Assembly: GCA_003132105.1 (NCBI GenBank)
Contig: PKWS01000323.1
Location: 1 to 32,540, forward strand
DNA length: 32,540 nucleotides
Direction of reading: 5' to 3'
Origin: Desulfosporosinus sp.
GTDB taxonomy: Bacteria; Bacillota; Desulfitobacteriia; Desulfitobacteriales; Desulfitobacteriaceae
Made by a program: the position numbers and the translations under genes. Positions 12,241 to 32,540 of this stretch are shown here, piece after piece. Position 1 is the first letter of the stretch. Every line of letters starts with the position of its first letter. The notes below the pieces were generated by a model. That model ran no database searches and was not told the DNA's origin. It was given only the letters and a program-made list of their open reading frames with translations.

Positions 12241-12392
12241 AATATTGTAAGTTCAAAGTAACGGAATTAAAAGAGATACTCAATGTAATATATAAACATG
12301 TGGGGCTATATCCTACTGACGATCTGATTATTGAATTAAAAATTGAGAGAAGAATAAAAAGTGAAATATTAGCAAGAGGATTGTCAGTATGA
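12237..12392 (+). CDS. Small hypothetical protein (51 aa)
   Basis: MKYCKFKVTELKEILNVIYKHVGLYPTDDLIIELKIERRIKSEILARGLSV; start and stop overlaps on both sides. Confidence 0.5.
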   Translation: MKYCKFKVTELKEILNVIYKHVGLYPTDDLIIELKIERRIKSEILARGLSV

Positions 12393-12739
12393 CTGTCTCT
12401 AAACGGCCAGCTAAAGTGCCGAGTTTTACTCTTCAGAAAGAGACTCATTGCGGCCCAATGTATATAATTGTAGGTCATATTAATGGAAAGATAATAGAGG
12501 TATTCGCTATACTAGGGAAGGCTGGCGGTTGCGGGTCCGCAGTGGTTGACGGTATGGCTAGGATGATCTCATATGGACTTCGTAGCGGAATGGAACCAGA
12601 TAGAGTAATCAAAGGTATGAGCGGTATTCAATGCCACCAGGGGCCAGATACCTGTTGTAACGCTATTGCTTTAGCAGTTAAGGAAGTAATGAATGAATTG
12701 GAGGAAATGGAAATATGTGAGGAGGGCTATGACCGATAA
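12389..12739 (+). CDS. Stand-alone TSCPD domain protein (ribonucleotide-reductase-associated type)
   Basis: HCGPMYIIVGHINGKIIEVFAILGKAGGCGSAVVDGMARMISYGLRSGMEPDRVIKGMSGIQCH. Confidence 0.7.
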   Translation: MTVSKRPAKVPSFTLQKETHCGPMYIIVGHINGKIIEVFAILGKAGGCGSAVVDGMARMISYGLRSGMEPDRVIKGMSGIQCHQGPDTCCNAIALAVKEVMNELEEMEICEEGYDR

Positions 12740-16265: not shown

Positions 16266-17204
16266 ATGATCAATGAACTAAATTTACTGGATAAGTTTGT
16301 ACCTAAATCGGAGTTTAAGTCGGCTACTTGGGAATGTTTTAATGTAGCAGATGGCCAGGTTACAGCTACAGATTTTGCCATAACCATGTCAATGTATATT
16401 CCGGAACTAGCAGGCTTTAATTTTAATGTACCTGCTCATAAGTTTACTGCAGCCATAAGTGTTTGCAAGAATCCTCAATTGAGTCAGAATGATGATGTCT
16501 TGACGATCCGGGACGGATCTTTTAAGATCGATATTCAACTAATAATGAATGCCTTTGGGAATATTTTTATGCCCGAAGGAGAAGGACTAAAGTTTGGACC
16601 TATTCTTCCTGTTCTTAAGGTGCTTCAAGGCTTTATGGGGTCTCCCAAGCGGCCTAACCTCCAGGGAATATTCTTTAATGATAATTTTGCCTATGCCAGT
16701 GATGGTAGTGTAGCCGCTAAAATTCCATGCAGGGCTGAAGGCATTTCCGCAGTTATTCCAGCCAAAGCTATATCGGAGCTTCTTAATAATGGGAATGAGC
16801 CGGTTAAAACAGTTTTAAACAAGAACCAGGTGGCTTTTTTTTATACCGATAAGGACTGGCTTCAAGCTAATGTTCTTGATACCAAATTCCCCGATATTAA
16901 TAAGATCCTAAATAAGGTTGTATTTATCGATAATAAGGTAGATCCGGCTTTACTTATAGGAATCAATCAAATTCTTCAATTTACCGAGGGCGAGTTTACT
17001 CAAATTACATTTGATGAGAAGGGGATCAAGGGTGGTTCAGCAGAGTTTTATATTAGCAGCCTGTATCCTTCATGCTGGAATGGCAAGACCCTTAGAGGGG
17101 TGCTGGAGCTTGCTGAAACTATAAATTTCGAGGCATGGCCTAATCCAGCAGGTTGGAGAGGGGCAAACGGGCTTGAAGGTGTACTCTGCGGATTGATTAA
17201 ATAA
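16266..17204 (+). CDS. Probable DNA sliding clamp (DnaN-like)
   Basis: PNLQGIFFNDNFAYASDGSVAAKIPC...VIPAKAISELL...QANVLDTKFPDINKILNKV resemble the LxATDxxRLA / PxK / GxFPDYxxVIP landmarks of beta clamps; replication context. Confidence 0.55.
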   Translation: MINELNLLDKFVPKSEFKSATWECFNVADGQVTATDFAITMSMYIPELAGFNFNVPAHKFTAAISVCKNPQLSQNDDVLTIRDGSFKIDIQLIMNAFGNIFMPEGEGLKFGPILPVLKVLQGFMGSPKRPNLQGIFFNDNFAYASDGSVAAKIPCRAEGISAVIPAKAISELLNNGNEPVKTVLNKNQVAFFYTDKDWLQANVLDTKFPDINKILNKVVFIDNKVDPALLIGINQILQFTEGEFTQITFDEKGIKGGSAEFYISSLYPSCWNGKTLRGVLELAETINFEAWPNPAGWRGANGLEGVLCGLIK

Positions 17205-17264: not shown

Positions 17265-17600
17265 ATGAGACCAAAGAATGAAAAGAAGCAATATGAGGAG
17301 GAGAAAGAAGCGGTTCGGACCTTGTCTATTTTTGATGAAGATGATGAAGCTGAAGATAAGAATACTTGGAGTAAAGAATGGAATGATATGCCTGAGTTTA
17401 TTCAAGAGAATGACCCACCCTTTGAATATATTAAGGTATGCTTTAGAAGTATAGATGATCGAAAAGCCTTCGCTAAATTAACTAACTTAACTGTTACGGA
17501 AAAGACCAAGACAATCTGGTTTCCTGCATTAATAGAGCGAAGAGGTATGGATAAGAATGTAGAATATATAGATGAGATAGAAGAGGAGGAAAGGTTTTGA
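17265..17600 (+). CDS. Acidic hypothetical protein
   Basis: Complete ORF with RBS caggagaagga. Confidence 0.6.
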   Translation: MRPKNEKKQYEEEKEAVRTLSIFDEDDEAEDKNTWSKEWNDMPEFIQENDPPFEYIKVCFRSIDDRKAFAKLTNLTVTEKTKTIWFPALIERRGMDKNVEYIDEIEEEERF

Positions 17601-17631: not shown

Positions 17632-18459
17632 ATGCAACCAAAATATCCAGTATATATTATCTCGAAGGGCCGGTGGGAGAGCAGATTAACAGCAAAATGT
17701 CTGGAGAAGATAAATGTACCTTACCATATCGTAGTCGAACCCCAAGAATATGACCAATATGCAAAGGTAATTGATCCTTCTAAAATCTTTGTATTACCTT
17801 TCTCCAATTTAGGATTAGGATCTATTCCTGCTAGAAACTGGGTATGGGAACATGCCATATCTATCGGAGCAGAACGACATTGGATCATGGATGATAATAT
17901 CTATAACTTTTATCGTCTGAACCAAAATTTTAAAGGTCGGGTAACATCAGGAACTGTCCTAAAGCTAGCTGAGGATTTTGTAGATAGGTACGAGAATGTA
18001 GCCCTATCTGGTTTTCAATATACACTATTAACAGCTGCCCCCAAAAAAAACCCTGCTTTCTGTCTTAACACTAGAATCTATTCTTGTATTTTAATTAAGA
18101 ATGATCTTCCTTACAGGTGGAGAGGAAAGTATAATGAGGATACCGATCTAAGTTTAAGAGTGTTGAAAGATGGATGGTGTACGATTCTGTTTTATGCCTT
18201 TTTAGCCAATAAAATGACAACATTGGTAATGAAAGGTGGGAATATGACGGAGTTATATAAAGATGATGGTCGTTTGAAGATGGCTGAGTCGCTAAGAGAT
18301 CAGCATCCAGACGTATGTTGTATTACTTGGAAATGGAATCGCTGGCAACATCATATTAATTATAAACCTTTTAAAAAGAATAAACTCATCATGAAGGAAG
18401 GTTTAGTCATTCCCAAAGGAAATAATGAGCATGGAATGAAATTAGTAAGACTGAAATAA
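17632..18459 (+). CDS. TET-associated-glycosyltransferase-like (TAGT) protein
   Basis: YPVYIISKGRWESRLTAKCLEKINVPYHIVVEPQEYDQYA...IPARNWVWEHA...HWIMDDNIYNFYRLN...NEDTDLSLRVLKDGWCTILF. Confidence 0.7.
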   Translation: MQPKYPVYIISKGRWESRLTAKCLEKINVPYHIVVEPQEYDQYAKVIDPSKIFVLPFSNLGLGSIPARNWVWEHAISIGAERHWIMDDNIYNFYRLNQNFKGRVTSGTVLKLAEDFVDRYENVALSGFQYTLLTAAPKKNPAFCLNTRIYSCILIKNDLPYRWRGKYNEDTDLSLRVLKDGWCTILFYAFLANKMTTLVMKGGNMTELYKDDGRLKMAESLRDQHPDVCCITWKWNRWQHHINYKPFKKNKLIMKEGLVIPKGNNEHGMKLVRLK

Positions 18460-18470
18460 AGGAGTTGTTT

Positions 18471-19445
18471 ATGTGGAAAAAGATGAAACAGATAAAGCGA
18501 ATAAAGCCACTAGGGTCTACTTCACCTCGGGTCTGGGTAATAGAACCTTCATTTGGATGTAATCTAAAATGTGGTCATTGTTGTTCTGATTTAATACAGT
18601 ATGAAGATAAATTACTCATGTCTAAAGAAGTATGGACAGCCACCTGGAATATTCTGGGCCAAGTATCTCCAACTGTTAGGGTCGATATTTGCGGAGTAGT
18701 AGGGGAACCTACCCTAAATCCGGATTTAACAGAGTGGCTGCCAATAGGCAGACAATTAGCTCCTCTTTCCCAGATCCAAATCACTACTAATGGTACTAAA
18801 TTGATAAGTGGTGCTGTTACATTTAAGAGGTTATTAGATGCCGGAGCTAATATTATTTATGTAGATCAATATGGGCCCCCAGAAATATTTGAAAAACTGG
18901 CTGAAGAATCAGGTTATCCTTGGTATAAATATTATGACGCTCCCGAGGATGCCCCTAGTCCCTGGAAATATTATGGTCCACATCCCAAATTTATTGTATT
19001 AATGGATCATCCTGGGCTTTGGCCAAAATCACGATTTAGGGCAGGGTTACTCGGTAACTGGTATGGGAATCTTAACTGGGAAAAGGCAAAAGAATTTGGA
19101 ATGAAGCCATTAGAGCAACCTTTAACTCGCCGCTGTAATCAGCCGTTTCTCTATGTCAATGTTGGAGCTGATGGCAACTATTTGCTATGCTGTCAAGATG
19201 GATTACATATAACTTCTGGGAAGTTTGGAAGTGTATTAGAAGGGCAGTATGGATTTAATTCATTTTGGTATGGAAAGGAAATGCAGATAGTACGTCAGCG
19301 ATTAAGAAATAAAGATCGAGCAGGTACGCTTTATGCTTGTGCCAAATGTAATATTACATTTTCCCGATGTGATTTTAGACACTATAGTAAAGAAGAATTA
19401 TCAAAATATTTGGAAAATGGCGAATGGGTTAAATTTAAGGATTAA
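18471..19445 (+). CDS. Radical SAM protein with SPASM-like C-terminal Cys region
   Basis: EPSFGCNLKCGHCCSDL (CX3CX2C), CGVVGEPTLNPDL, C-terminal RRCNQPFLYVNVGADGNYLLCCQD...YACAKCNITFSRC. Confidence 0.85.
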   Translation: MWKKMKQIKRIKPLGSTSPRVWVIEPSFGCNLKCGHCCSDLIQYEDKLLMSKEVWTATWNILGQVSPTVRVDICGVVGEPTLNPDLTEWLPIGRQLAPLSQIQITTNGTKLISGAVTFKRLLDAGANIIYVDQYGPPEIFEKLAEESGYPWYKYYDAPEDAPSPWKYYGPHPKFIVLMDHPGLWPKSRFRAGLLGNWYGNLNWEKAKEFGMKPLEQPLTRRCNQPFLYVNVGADGNYLLCCQDGLHITSGKFGSVLEGQYGFNSFWYGKEMQIVRQRLRNKDRAGTLYACAKCNITFSRCDFRHYSKEELSKYLENGEWVKFKD

Positions 19446-20044: not shown

Positions 20045-20246
20045 AACCTACAGTCTATTGGAGAGCTGTACTAATATTATAGTTGGCTGCGGGGTAACTC
20101 TTTTAAGTCAGATTATTATCTTTCCGTTGTTTGGAATACATATTCTGCTTAGAGATAATTTAATGATGACAGCATGGTTTTCTGTATTGTCAATTACAAG
20201 AGGCTACCTTATAAGGAGGTTCTTTACTTTATATGTCAAGCGATAA
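20031..20246 (+). CDS. Small membrane protein of a widespread phage/bacterial family (MAQTKTxS...RGYxxRRFF type)
   Basis: MAQTKTYSLLESCTNIIVGCGVTLLSQIIIFPLFGIHILLRDNLMMTAWFSVLSITRGYLIRRFFTLYVKR. Confidence 0.65.
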   Translation: MAQTKTYSLLESCTNIIVGCGVTLLSQIIIFPLFGIHILLRDNLMMTAWFSVLSITRGYLIRRFFTLYVKR

Positions 20247-22077
20247 ACCTCAAGCTGTATGGGATACTGAGTGTGGGCCTAATTACTGGCTGATTAAATT
20301 TATGAGATTGTCTGATAATGTAATGGCGGAGTTTGAGCAGCTAGAAGATAAGCCGTTAGACTATAAAAAAATTCGAGAAATAATCAATAAATATGAGTTA
20401 ATTGATTTTAATGGTATTAAATATGATGTTCCAATGCTACAGTTTGCTTTAGCTGGTGCCACCAACACCCGGTTAAAGGAAATTTCTGATAAATTAATAG
20501 TAGAACATACCCCAGAATGGAAGCTAAAAGGAGAATACAAAACTGTTCCATTAAACATTGATCATATTGATCTAATAGATTTGCCTCGGGGTAAAGACTC
20601 ACTTAAAACTTATGCCGGTCGATTACATGTAGAGGAGTTGCAAGATCTACCTGAAGAAATGTTCAATAGAGTATTGACTAGAGACGAAATGAATGCAGTT
20701 GCTACTTATTGCGGGAAGGATCTAAAGGCAACAGCACTACTTTATAATCATATATTGCCTCAGATAGATCTTCGTCGAACTATGTCTAAGCGATATAATA
20801 CGGATCTGAGATCAAAGTCGGATGCTCAGATAGCAGAAATAATACTTACTTTAAATTTGACTAAAGAGTTGGGGTATAAGCCTTGTAAAGCACTTACCGT
20901 AGAGAAAGAATTTAAGTATGACATTCCAGAGTTTATAACACTAGATCATGAAGTACTTGATATAATTTCTGGGTGTAACTTTACCTTAGATAAGCTTGGG
21001 CATATAGTTATGCCTCCAGAACTTGATAATTATGAGATCAAGATCGGCAAGTCTATTTATCGGCTAGGAATAGGTGGACTTCATTCTTCCGAGAGTTCGG
21101 TCTGGTATAAGGCTGAAGATGGCTGGGGTCTAGCTGATCATGATGTTACTGGGTATTACCCTGCCACTATACTACGTTGTGGAATAAGTCCTAAGCACAT
21201 TGGGCCTGCTTTTTTAAAAGTATTTAAGACCAGTGTGGATGAGCGTACTGTAGCAAAGTCAACAAATGATACAGAAGTTGCTGATACTTTAAAGATTGTA
21301 AATAATGGATCTTTTGGGAAGCTATCATCTAAATACTCTATTTTATATGAACCAAAGTTAATGCTCCAGGTAACACTAACTGGGCAGCTATTGCTATTAA
21401 TGCAGATAAATTCCTTAGAAGAGCATGGGCTTCAAGTAGTTAGTGCCAATACTGACGGTATAGTGGTGCGCTATCCACTTAGTTTAGAGACTGTGCTAAC
21501 TCGTTGTATTAAGGAATGGGAACAAATAACCCGGTTATCGATGGAAAGAAGCGAGTATTCAGCTCTTTATTCCAGAGATGTAAATAACTATTTTGCTATT
21601 AAGAAGAATGGTAAGATTAAAACCAAAGGATGTTTTGGACCTCCGGCTGTTAGTAACCTAGAAGCAAAGAACCCCCAAGACGAAATTTGTAACGATGCTC
21701 TTTTTGCCTACGTTCAACATGGTACTCCATTTGAGCAAACAATCAGAGAATGTAAAGATATTCGTAAATTTCTGACATTAAGGAAAGTGGAGGGCGGGGC
21801 AGTAAAGGATGGAGTCTACTTGGGAAAAATAATCAGATGGTATTATGGAAAAAACGCTAACGGGGCTATTAAGTACCAAAGCAACGGCAATAATGTAGCC
21901 TTAACCGATGGTGCGCAGCCGCTAATGGCTCTTCCTGTAGATTTTCCTAAAGATATTGATTACAACCGGTATTTGGGCAAATGTGAAAGTTTATTATACG
22001 ATGTAGGCCTTAAACACAGCTTTAATCCTCAGTGCAAATTCGGTAATACTTCATCCAAACTAATCAAATTATTTTAA
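20233..22077 (+). CDS. Short family-B-like DNA polymerase with 3'-5' exonuclease domain
   Basis: Exo: AVWDTECG, IDFNGIKYDVPML, YCGKDLKATALLYN; Pol motif A DHDVTGYYPATI, motif B KIVNNGSFGKLSSKYS, motif C SANTDGIVV. Confidence 0.85.
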   Translation: MSSDKPQAVWDTECGPNYWLIKFMRLSDNVMAEFEQLEDKPLDYKKIREIINKYELIDFNGIKYDVPMLQFALAGATNTRLKEISDKLIVEHTPEWKLKGEYKTVPLNIDHIDLIDLPRGKDSLKTYAGRLHVEELQDLPEEMFNRVLTRDEMNAVATYCGKDLKATALLYNHILPQIDLRRTMSKRYNTDLRSKSDAQIAEIILTLNLTKELGYKPCKALTVEKEFKYDIPEFITLDHEVLDIISGCNFTLDKLGHIVMPPELDNYEIKIGKSIYRLGIGGLHSSESSVWYKAEDGWGLADHDVTGYYPATILRCGISPKHIGPAFLKVFKTSVDERTVAKSTNDTEVADTLKIVNNGSFGKLSSKYSILYEPKLMLQVTLTGQLLLLMQINSLEEHGLQVVSANTDGIVVRYPLSLETVLTRCIKEWEQITRLSMERSEYSALYSRDVNNYFAIKKNGKIKTKGCFGPPAVSNLEAKNPQDEICNDALFAYVQHGTPFEQTIRECKDIRKFLTLRKVEGGAVKDGVYLGKIIRWYYGKNANGAIKYQSNGNNVALTDGAQPLMALPVDFPKDIDYNRYLGKCESLLYDVGLKHSFNPQCKFGNTSSKLIKLF

Positions 22078-24004: not shown

Positions 24005-24273
24005 AGCTGGTTGGTTGGGTAACAGGAGTATGGGTAAGATATTGGACTGGGGTGTGGGGAAAGTATTTTCTCGGATGGTTTACACCTGTGGTAAAATGCG
24101 AAGGTTGTGGAGCAATATATGAGGATATTACCTCACAACCTTTTGGGTCTCAATGGTGTCCAAATCATTTGATGGTAAGATCTGATGGCAAACGGGCCTG
24201 CTATTATGTTCGATATAATTCCGGATTACAAGTTGAGATGGTCTATGCCAAATTAAAAGGGGAAATAAAATGA
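23998..24273 (+). CDS. Hypothetical protein with CxxC...C zinc-ribbon-like motif
   Basis: VVKCEGCGAIYEDITSQPFGSQWCPNH. Confidence 0.5.
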   Translation: MVKLVGWVTGVWVRYWTGVWGKYFLGWFTPVVKCEGCGAIYEDITSQPFGSQWCPNHLMVRSDGKRACYYVRYNSGLQVEMVYAKLKGEIK

Positions 24274-25103
24274 GCCAAGACTTAATAGAAGGGCCAATAG
24301 ACGGTTATAAGTTAACAGATGAAAATATGGTTTGTTGCCCAGACGGTATACCTTACCAGTATGAACTTGGTAAACGACATCAATTGGTAGAAGAAAACAG
24401 GCCTTTAGATTTGTGCGAGTATGGTTTCCACTTCTGCTTATATCCTTCAGGTGTTTATGTATATAAAAATATAGGTAGAGTTTTTAAAGTAAGAGCCTAC
24501 GGAGTTTTGAAATTGGATAAAACTCCGGGAGCAGATTTAAAGATGGTTTGTAAGGAGATAGAATTTGTTGAAGAAATAACGCCTACAGGTAACCAGAATA
24601 CAGGCCACCGGAATACAGGCTGCCAGAATACAGGCGACCAGAATACAGGCGACCAGAATACAGGTAACTGGAATACAGGTAACTGGAATACAGGCGAACG
24701 GAATATAGGCGACCAGAATACAGGTAACTGGAATACAGGTAACTGGAATACAGGCGAACGGAATATAGGCCACCTGAATACAGGCCACCGGAATACAGGC
24801 CACCAGAATACAGGTAACCAGAATACAGGCCACCGGAATACAGGCGACCAGAATACAGGTAACTGGAATTGTGGTAATTTTCATACTGGTTATTTTGGAT
24901 TGTTAGACGCGCCTGTTTATGTGTTTGATAAAATCTGCGAAGTAAAAAGACAAGACCTCAATATGGTATTATTCTACGAATTGGGGAAAAGGCTATTAGA
25001 GAATGCCCCTTTTGATATTAAGCCTTTCCTTGGTATCCCTAACGCAACAGAAATAAAAATTACAAACCTCCACCAAGCTTTTATAAAGGCGCGTAAGAAA
25101 TGA
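24270..25103 (+). CDS. DUF7666-like N-terminal domain plus NTG-type pentapeptide repeat protein
   Basis: DGYKLTDENMVCCPDG...ENRPLDLCEYGFHFCLYPSGVYVYKNIGRVFKVRAYG then 19 x TGxxN repeats. Confidence 0.7.
   Translation: MSQDLIEGPIDGYKLTDENMVCCPDGIPYQYELGKRHQLVEENRPLDLCEYGFHFCLYPSGVYVYKNIGRVFKVRAYGVLKLDKTPGADLKMVCKEIEFVEEITPTGNQNTGHRNTGCQNTGDQNTGDQNTGNWNTGNWNTGERNIGDQNTGNWNTGNWNTGERNIGHLNTGHRNTGHQNTGNQNTGHRNTGDQNTGNWNCGNFHTGYFGLLDAPVYVFDKICEVKRQDLNMVLFYELGKRLLENAPFDIKPFLGIPNATEIKITNLHQAFIKARKK
24585..24869 (+). repeat. 15-bp coding tandem repeat (19 units), including an exact 60-bp tandem duplication 24651-24710 / 24711-24770
   Basis: ACAGGYNAMYRGAAT period 15, read directly. Confidence 0.95.
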
Positions 25104-30189: not shown

Positions 30190-30437
30190 GAACCATGTTG
30201 GCGGTTATCTGGGAGATTATTCAATCCCTAGCCTGGATGTTCTTAATATATATAATCCTTCAGGTTATGATCGGATGCTCCTCATTTCCTTATAAAATGA
30301 CAGGTTTTGATGTTAGCGCGACCGGTGGCCAGCAATTTTGGAATAATGGCCCTGGGCCGTCTCAGCCGTACTTTACTGAGAGTATTACGGTTAGTGGGCA
30401 TTTTTCAGATCCGCGGTATCTTAGGGAAAATAAGTGA
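30186..30437 (+). CDS. Possible small lipoprotein / membrane protein
   Basis: MRTMLAVIWEIIQSLAWMFLIYIILQVMIGCSSFPYK: hydrophobic N-terminus with lipobox-like VMIGC. Confidence 0.5.
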   Translation: MRTMLAVIWEIIQSLAWMFLIYIILQVMIGCSSFPYKMTGFDVSATGGQQFWNNGPGPSQPYFTESITVSGHFSDPRYLRENK

Positions 30438-30539
30438 AGGACAAGGTTACACTGCTGGAGGTATATCTAAAATGATATTCCCAGTGAAGGACAAGGTTAC
30501 ACTGCTGGAGGTATATCTAAAATGATATTCCCAGTGAAG
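30434..30539 (+). repeat. 50-bp perfect tandem duplication containing an RBS and start codon
   Basis: GTGAAGGACAAGGTTACACTGCTGGAGGTATATCTAAAATGATATTCCCA at 30434-30483 and 30484-30533, then gtgaag. Confidence 0.95.
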
Positions 30540-30683
30540 CAGTGGCAGCATGGTAAGTACATTGCAGTATGTGTATTTAAGCATCATAGTTATACCTGTA
30601 GTTTGTTCTTTGACAATTTAATGCTTCGATTCGCTCAGCTCGGGACAGAGAACCGCCGGGCTATTGTAGTTTGCAGAATATGA
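30522..30683 (+). CDS. Small hypothetical protein (53 aa)
   Basis: MIFPVKQWQHGKYIAVCVFKHHSYTCSLFFDNLMLRFAQLGTENRRAIVVCRI; stop overlaps TerL start (ATGA). Confidence 0.5.
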   Translation: MIFPVKQWQHGKYIAVCVFKHHSYTCSLFFDNLMLRFAQLGTENRRAIVVCRI

Positions 30684-32512
30684 GTAGCCCTTACCCCAAA
30701 ATCCAGTTTCCTTTAATATTGGCCCCACTTTTTGAGCCGCATCTTTATAAAGTTGTATGGGGTGGCCGTGGAGGACTTAAAACAAGAAACATCGCCCAGG
30801 CTTTGGTAATCCTGGGCGCTGCTACATCTATCAGAGTAATTTGTTGCAGAGAGATCCAAAAGTCTCTTAAAGATTCAGTACATCAGGAACTAGCCGATGC
30901 TATAGTTCGTGCTGGGCTTGATGATTATTATCGCATCCTGGATAATGAGATCCGGGGTATAAATAATGGTACATTCTTCATCTTCACTGGTCTTAAATCC
31001 AATAGCTCCTCGATTAAATCCACAGCAGCTTTAAATATAGCTTGGGTAGAAGAAGCCGAAGGTGTATCTAAATCATCGTGGGAGTTCCTTGAACCTACGA
31101 TGAGAACACCTTGGCTATTACCCTGCCAGTTCTGGCCCATAGGTACTAAGTTCACGCCGGAAGAACGAAGATTAAATGGTCGGTGGGTAGATCCTGAGAT
31201 CTGGTGTTCATTCAATCCAGATGATGAGACTGACGAAACATATGTTAAATTTGTAGGAGGAGATCCGCCTAGATCAGGATGGAAGCCGCCGCCCGGAGCC
31301 TGGATATGTATGACTTCTTGGCGTGATAATCCATGGATGCCAAGTAATCTTATCATGCAGAAGGACCATCTTGAGGCCACTGATTATGATGCTTATCTTC
31401 ATGTGTGGGAAGGTAAGCCCAGAAAGATGTCTGCAGCTCAAGTACTTCGAGATAAATATGTGAAGCAATGGTTCGAACCCGATCCAGACACATGGGATGG
31501 CCCATATGATGGAACTGACTGGGGATTCTCTAGTGATCCATCAGCTCATAGCCGATGCTGGGTATTCCAAAGACGATTATATATAGAATATGGTTATTAT
31601 GGCTATGGTGTGGAGAATGATGATCTATCTGAATGGTTGAATCAAATGCCCGATGCAGCTAGGCAAGTAAATAGGGCAGACTGTGCCAGGCCAGAAACTA
31701 TCAGCCATTGTCGCAGGCATGGTCATCCGTTAATGATACCGTGTGAGAAATGGCCAGGATCAGTAGAAGATGGAGTTTCATACCTACGTGGTGAATTTGA
31801 TCAGATTGTAATCCACCCGAGATGTGAATCAGCACTGGAAGAAGCTCGGTTATGGTCCTATGAGATAGATAAGAATAGTCAAGAAGTATTGCCTAAACTA
31901 AAGAAAGGCCATGATCATATAATGGATTCTATACGTTACGCTATAGGCCCACTCATTCGAGGCGCTGTTAAGTTGCCTGGTAACTGGTGGCGTAGATGGA
32001 CTGAGACAGAAGCCACGGAACGAGCCATTTCAATCAAGTACGTCATTGTAACCGTTGATGAAACAACAGAAGGAGCTGCTGAACTACGGGCCGTATTCCA
32101 ATTATGGGGTGTTGGTGGCTATAGTAAGATATTCCTGTTAAAAGAGGCAGGCTGTTTTGGCCTATTACCTGAGATCATGGATGAGATAGCTAAATTCTGG
32201 GAGGAATGTGCCCAGTTTGGCAGTTATGTTAAAGCAGCTAGTGAGTTATGGTGTGAGAGTAAATCAATTGGATCTACATTGATCAAAACTCTACGCGCAA
32301 AAGGTATACCTGCAAGGGAATGGGATCAAGAAGATTTGAGCATGAATGATCCATCCTGGAGGGCAAAGCAAGCTTCAGTTCATCTGCATGACGGTAGGGT
32401 ATATATTCCAGTTGGCCCATGTATAGCTATGCAAGAAATAGAAGGTCTTGCCACTAATGCGTTAACTCTAGCATTAATGGTTTGGCAGAAGAGGGGCGGG
32501 GGCGTAGGATAA
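30680..32512 (+). CDS. terL: Terminase large subunit
   Basis: VVWGGRGGLKTRNIAQAL (Walker A), LNIAWVEEAEGVSKSSWEFLEPTMR (Walker B), nuclease YDGTDWGFSSDPSAH...GHDHIMDSIRYAIGPL; likely start MSSPYPK at 30680. Confidence 0.9.
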   Translation: MSSPYPKIQFPLILAPLFEPHLYKVVWGGRGGLKTRNIAQALVILGAATSIRVICCREIQKSLKDSVHQELADAIVRAGLDDYYRILDNEIRGINNGTFFIFTGLKSNSSSIKSTAALNIAWVEEAEGVSKSSWEFLEPTMRTPWLLPCQFWPIGTKFTPEERRLNGRWVDPEIWCSFNPDDETDETYVKFVGGDPPRSGWKPPPGAWICMTSWRDNPWMPSNLIMQKDHLEATDYDAYLHVWEGKPRKMSAAQVLRDKYVKQWFEPDPDTWDGPYDGTDWGFSSDPSAHSRCWVFQRRLYIEYGYYGYGVENDDLSEWLNQMPDAARQVNRADCARPETISHCRRHGHPLMIPCEKWPGSVEDGVSYLRGEFDQIVIHPRCESALEEARLWSYEIDKNSQEVLPKLKKGHDHIMDSIRYAIGPLIRGAVKLPGNWWRRWTETEATERAISIKYVIVTVDETTEGAAELRAVFQLWGVGGYSKIFLLKEAGCFGLLPEIMDEIAKFWEECAQFGSYVKAASELWCESKSIGSTLIKTLRAKGIPAREWDQEDLSMNDPSWRAKQASVHLHDGRVYIPVGPCIAMQEIEGLATNALTLALMVWQKRGGGVG

Positions 32513-32540
32513 GGAGAAAAAATGATATTCCCAGTGAATA

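Follow-up and report, generated by a model that had tools for sequence, protein, structure and literature searches.

The TAGT glycosyltransferases, to which a 2013 paper reportedly gave their name, are called after an association with TET/JBP oxygenases that is no requirement of their fold. In the TET/JBP-TAGT cassette of Nonlabens phage P12024L, the TAGT lies within a DNA-modification cluster. The family member of phage T6, beta-glucosyl-HMC-alpha-glucosyltransferase (PF20691/phrog_842), is described as placing a second sugar on hmC of DNA that is already glucosylated (PMC13216743); hmC is provided there by a thymidylate-synthase (TS)-type enzyme, and a primary glucosyltransferase takes part as well. 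In a survey from the same source, 288 of the 753 phages that carry a DNA glycosyltransferase homologue encode TAGT as the only one, without an assigned function, and TAGTs without primary glucosyltransferases are noted as unexplained (PMC13216743). ParB proteins occur beside phage cytosine carboxymethyltransferases, as in the CmoA/CmoX/CmoY system of carboxymethylcytosine hypermodification, in which a phage builds upon a handle placed on cytosine (PMC12783734). Another point of comparison is BtrN, a 2-deoxy-scyllo-inosamine dehydrogenase (4M7T) that oxidises an alcohol of an aminocyclitol (PMC9012708).

Here we analyze a stretch of 32,540 nucleotides (contig PKWS01000323.1, hereafter the window), which carries a TAGT gene next to genes for a helper domain and for a radical SAM (rSAM) enzyme. 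The window TAGT shares its Pfam family, PHROG and GT-A fold with the T6 enzyme, but neither the TS-type enzyme nor the primary glucosyltransferase of T6 is seen in the window phage, and helper and rSAM are not described for T6. Like the solitary TAGTs of the 288 phages, it occurs without alpha-GT or beta-GT; the helper and the rSAM partner, both seen here, are not mentioned in the passages of that survey consulted here (PMC13216743). Identity between the TAGTs of P12024L and the window is just 27%, and the former lacks the helper domain; the window phage lacks TET. Likewise, whereas the CmoA/CmoX/CmoY system is based on a C5-methylase, the window phage has no such gene. The rSAM has the same single-auxiliary-cluster cysteine pattern as BtrN, at 18% identity, and its family was found here in viral contigs only. 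The gene identities, the intact motifs, the folds, the recurrent linkage and the occurrence of relatives in DNA-modification cassettes lead us to lean towards a three-part phage module for DNA-sugar hypermodification, composed of the helper, the TAGT and a BtrN-like rSAM that would rework the sugar.

Genomic context of the module

The window belongs to a tailed phage. Over the common parts, the window shows 99.6–100% identity to a 62,758-base contig of IMG/VR (L002, L083–L085): positions 1–24783 of the window align to the last part of this contig and positions 30209–32540 to its beginning, so that the two sequences together close a circle, by summation of ~67 kb. Pfam and PHROG searches with the ORFs of the window and the contig identified portal, capsid, and baseplate genes, a terminase, and, for replication, SNF2 helicase, AEP-type primase, UvrD helicase, exonuclease, clamp, and polymerase. 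Beyond the module, these scans revealed no further base-modification family in either sequence.

The initial annotation placed two adjacent, co-directional ORFs, 11 nt apart, between a clamp-like and a polymerase gene. Both ORFs are real neighbors on the + strand. The TAGT gene (17632..18459, 275 aa) starts with ATG 17632 and ends with the stop codon at 18457–18459. The start of the rSAM gene (18471..19445, 324 aa) was called by the ORF tool at TTG 18465; GGAG at 18461–18464 is well placed for ATG 18471, and this supported start confirms the gap of 11 nt from the TAGT stop. The flanks are as described: a clamp-like DNA polymerase processivity factor lies upstream (16266..17204, +; phrog_947, E 1.7e-22) and a phage DNA polymerase downstream (20233..22077, +; phrog_1252, E 2e-171), separated from the rSAM by several small ORFs. 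The proposed two-gene cassette is nonetheless incomplete, as it omits the helper ORF of 111 aa (17265..17600, +), whose ATG 17265 is preceded by an AGGAG ribosome-binding site, and the module thus has three parts.

Other genes of the phage deserve mention. A GH26 glycoside hydrolase with InlB-B repeats (37–2142), cut at the window start, is probably a tail-fibre enzyme. A stand-alone TSCPD domain protein (12389–12739) is encoded in the replication region, and the near-identical IMG/VR contig ends within the repeat array of a pentapeptide-repeat protein with DUF7666 (24270–25103). That contig opens with an IS605 OrfB/TnpB-like gene (L083, 17–1405), which is missing from the matching place in the window.

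The TAGT and its helper domain

The 275-aa protein aligns with PF20691 over the entire profile (1–205 of 205) with 152.5 bits, against a cut-off of 27.5. This is its sole Pfam match; the initial annotation had named a match to surface-glycan glycosyltransferases alone as contradicting its DNA-modification reading, and no surface-glycan family in Pfam is matched. The active-site motifs are intact (DDN, residues 87–89, and NEDTD, residues 168–172), with DDN present in all 81 TAGT relatives. The AlphaFold model of a fused TAGT relative (pLDDT 88) adopts a GT-A fold and matches GT-A enzymes in Foldseek, the nearest solved folds being LARGE1, ColGalT1, and SpsA, which act on proteins and glycans. 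The family assignment is thus borne out by profile score, motifs and fold, and by analogy the enzyme would transfer a sugar onto DNA. Among the 24 BLAST matches of the window TAGT there is no T-even phage. Cultured phages are represented by Aeromonas Ah1, Pectobacterium POP12, Tenacibaculum PTm1, and Vibrio 1.076.O and 1.124.O, whose TAGTs are 42–49% identical to that of the window and reach 384–471 aa owing to an additional N-terminal region.

In a search restricted to eight proteins, the ORF at 17265–17600 matches this additional region with E-values between 1e-9 and 4e-6, and shares with it the motif EWxGMPEFxQ...IxVxFxxxEDxxxFAxLxxQxxTxKTKSIWYP. The helper is stand-alone in the window; elsewhere it is found N-terminal to TAGT, as in the cultured phages, or behind a ParB domain, and Pfam detected a ParB_N domain fused to it in 8 of 30 cases. 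A search of 81 TAGT loci located a helper homologue directly upstream of TAGT, mostly overlapping it, or fused to it in 79, a few of these having the helper one or two genes away. As for the remaining two, one shows by eye a helper domain after a ParB-like domain (L041) and the other is cut at the contig end (L003), so that the helper lies beside or is fused to TAGT in 80/80 testable loci. The Pfam model also detected a TAGT that the custom HMM had missed (L116). Apart from the helper, no gene is present in more than ~15% of the TAGT loci and the host phages differ; helper and TAGT therefore behave as a mobile pair. It is the helper, and not the rSAM, that is the obligate partner of TAGT: the rSAM was considered for this part and rejected, being near just 7 of the 81 close TAGT loci, that is, absent from ~90%. 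The helper-TAGT profile gave no match against PDB sequences. In one locus (L131, 5956–8795), rSAM, TAGT, and two ParB-domain genes stand in a row and are followed by an ORF that resembles, by eye, a radical SAM enzyme with its cysteine motif.

A BtrN-like radical SAM enzyme

The 324-aa protein had been labeled a radical SAM/SPASM enzyme. The first half of this label holds, with PF04055 above its cut-off (34 bits vs 29.5) and a CX3CX2C motif at C32/C36/C39 (numbering from the TTG) that is invariant in 23 relatives. As to the second half, PF13186 (SPASM) passes its cut-off narrowly (23.7 vs 21.5), but the full seven-cysteine SPASM motif is absent. The C-terminal part has instead C224, C242, C243, C292, C295, and C302, which fit the four-cysteine twitch pattern: C224, C242, C292, and C295 (from the TTG) all align with the auxiliary-cluster cysteines of BtrN, although C292 is not invariant, being a tyrosine in L100. 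BtrN is also the best solved relative of the rSAM profile (E 1e-17) and the top Foldseek match of the AlphaFold model (pLDDT 91, pTM 0.91), with an E-value of 2e-12 and a TM-score of 0.80 by BtrN length. The next matches are thioether-forming peptide enzymes, the twitch dehydrogenase SpeY, and DesII; SuiB and the thioether-forming peptide enzymes match the model less well than BtrN. Judged by its cysteines and predicted fold, the rSAM resembles the twitch dehydrogenase BtrN more than the peptide-modifying SPASM enzymes.

Since BtrN is the best match and oxidises an aminocyclitol alcohol, we propose that the rSAM may oxidise or epimerise a sugar. At 18% identity to BtrN, naming such a substrate is conjecture, prompted by the neighboring gene. 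Deazaguanine synthesis of the QueE type was rejected, the NCBIfam QueE match being weak (E 0.003).

Linkage of the radical SAM family to TAGT

A single-sequence scan of IMG/VR for rSAM relatives returned the same phage only, whereas an alignment-based scan revealed a family. The profile search yielded 29 close loci, 36–68% identical, which collapsed at 90% identity into 21 clusters. TAGT is found on the same strand, 0–1.4 kb away, in 20 of these 21 non-redundant clusters, the sole exception being one group whose contigs do not exceed 25 kb. The genes occur in three orders: helper-TAGT-rSAM (the window, L105, L107, and L113), helper-rSAM-TAGT (L099, L100, L102, and L111), and rSAM-helper-TAGT (L095, L096, L106, L108, L112, L114, L115, and L117). 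The coupling of TAGT and rSAM that had been read from one phage is thus recurrent and specific. The 17 TAGTs linked to an rSAM are scattered over a tree of 82 TAGTs and require 11 changes, at least 5 of them forced by supported branches, counts that are rough as the bootstrap had not settled. Among 32 records with more distant rSAMs, 9 also contain a TAGT, close by in those that could be placed. Clamp-like genes occur in 9 of the 29 rSAM-family loci.

Conversely, just 7 of the 81 close TAGT loci have the rSAM nearby, and a Radical_SAM match was obtained in 8 of 50 records. As the rSAM is nearly always accompanied by TAGT and TAGT mostly lacks the rSAM, the rSAM depends on TAGT and not the reverse; it is optional for TAGT loci, and this asymmetry favors a tailoring role. 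All members of the BtrN-like family in this analysis come from viral contigs. No close relative was found in cultured phages, and the matches listed for cellular genomes contain weak fragments but no true family member.

DNA as the likely target

Both ADDT and TET are enzymes of DNA bases, and both accompany one relative that is 68% identical to the window TAGT. This single 4.1-kb viral contig (L027, 225–3979) carries a co-directional run of TET_JBP (89 bits), ADDT (76 bits), a P-loop kinase with a score just below the Pfam cut-off, helper, and TAGT; apparently, base hydroxylation and hypermodification with an amino acid and a sugar are joined there in one operon. A distant TAGT, a twitch-like rSAM, and a TS homologue stand close together in L138 (4753–8316) and, less closely spaced, in L128, a second and separate TAGT-rSAM lineage with the TS homologue as plausible acceptor-maker. 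These relatives, the ParB fusions, the clamp, clamp-loader, and polymerase genes among the module neighbors, and the action of the T6 TAGT on DNA make DNA the likely target, in support of the DNA decoration suggested initially.

In 5 loci TAGT is flanked by a gene for a nucleotide-sugar epimerase similar to UDP-xylose synthase, and in 7 by a methyltransferase gene, so that the donor sugar and its decoration probably vary. In L030, L055, L065, and L076, an NAD-dependent epimerase/UDP-xylose-synthase-like gene adjoins TAGT, hinting at the donor sugar. Epimerases and methyltransferases would also suit work on glycans, and LARGE1, ColGalT1, and SpsA, the nearest solved GT-A folds, act on glycans and proteins; TAGT and rSAM might accordingly alter the surface glycans or proteins of host or virion rather than DNA. 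We consider this unlikely in view of the replication-gene neighbors, the links to TET, ADDT, kinase, TS, and ParB, the lack of any Pfam match other than PF20691, and the DNA substrate of the T6 enzyme.

Source of the acceptor

No TET/JBP oxygenase was detected in the window, the 62.8-kb record, or the bin by a search that was positive in P12024L and L027. Similarly, TS (PF00303) was found neither in the phage record nor in the 79% complete bin, control genomes being positive, and a T-even type pathway with a TS-type hydroxymethylase supplying the acceptor is therefore not seen in the window phage. The absence of both enzymes, initially remarked for the window, thus holds for all three sequence sets. 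ADDT and C5-methylase are absent from the record of this phage, and the idea that TET, TS, ADDT, or C5-methylase is hidden elsewhere in it was rejected, as the record searches came back empty. The other rSAM-TAGT records have none or few of these genes: TET and TS are absent from all those of the close family, several of which span 50–70 kb, and a search of 29 records found C5-methylases in 3. It follows that no known acceptor is made in this phage. The acceptor may come from an unrecognised enzyme, from the host, or from the rSAM, or else TAGT takes a canonical base.

Were the rSAM the acceptor-maker, it would functionalise the base or nucleotide for TAGT in place of TET or a TS-type hydroxymethylase, which would agree with its tight pairing with TAGT and with the lack of a recognisable hydroxylase in this phage and in the other close rSAM-TAGT records. 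We regard this as improbable: most close TAGT loci lack the rSAM and also TET and TS, so that it is no general substitute; the distant TAGT-rSAM pair already adjoins a TS homologue; and the fold match is a dehydrogenase of a sugar-like alcohol. Still less probable is that an unrecognised enzyme of phage or host makes the acceptor and that the rSAM has an unrelated task and merely profits from co-transfer, for although TAGT and helper mostly occur without the rSAM, 20 of the 21 rSAM members lie next to TAGT, in three orders and with gains or losses recurring across the tree, and distant rSAMs share its record in 9 of 32 cases.

A model for sugar hypermodification

In the three-part module that we favor, the helper, which elsewhere is ParB-linked or fused to TAGT, would dock TAGT onto DNA or the replication machinery. 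TAGT would take a sugar from its nucleotide-sugar donor and attach it to a base of the phage DNA, and the BtrN-like rSAM would abstract hydrogen at one of the sugar carbons and thereby oxidise or epimerise the sugar, which could in this form escape recognition by host enzymes aimed at modified DNA. We infer the docking, the radical chemistry, and the use of this phage's own DNA as acceptor. More tentatively, the module may produce a radically reworked DNA sugar that helper and TAGT install without the known acceptor-forming enzymes, perhaps directly on a canonical base, the oxidation or epimerisation possibly taking place after or before transfer.

These results supply a context for one large group of solitary TAGTs, namely a helper domain as obligate partner and a BtrN-like radical enzyme as a recurrent one. 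We found no paper that connects TAGT with either a radical SAM enzyme or the helper in the literature searched, which did not include the 2013 paper that is said to have named TAGT, where an earlier mention is possible, or the 2025 work on glycosylated 5-hydroxycytosine, which could also bear on prior description. If the model is true, radical chemistry would join the known routes for building DNA sugars, and a mass shift visible by LC-MS is predicted. The cultured Vibrio phages 1.124.O and 1.076.O carry the helper-TAGT fusion without TET or TS, so that the acceptor question is directly answerable there. Single phages may also carry more than one copy: TAGT or helper-TAGT genes are duplicated in tandem in L026 (8422–10819), L047, and L090, and Vibrio phage Kuja has two TAGT or helper-TAGT paralogues.
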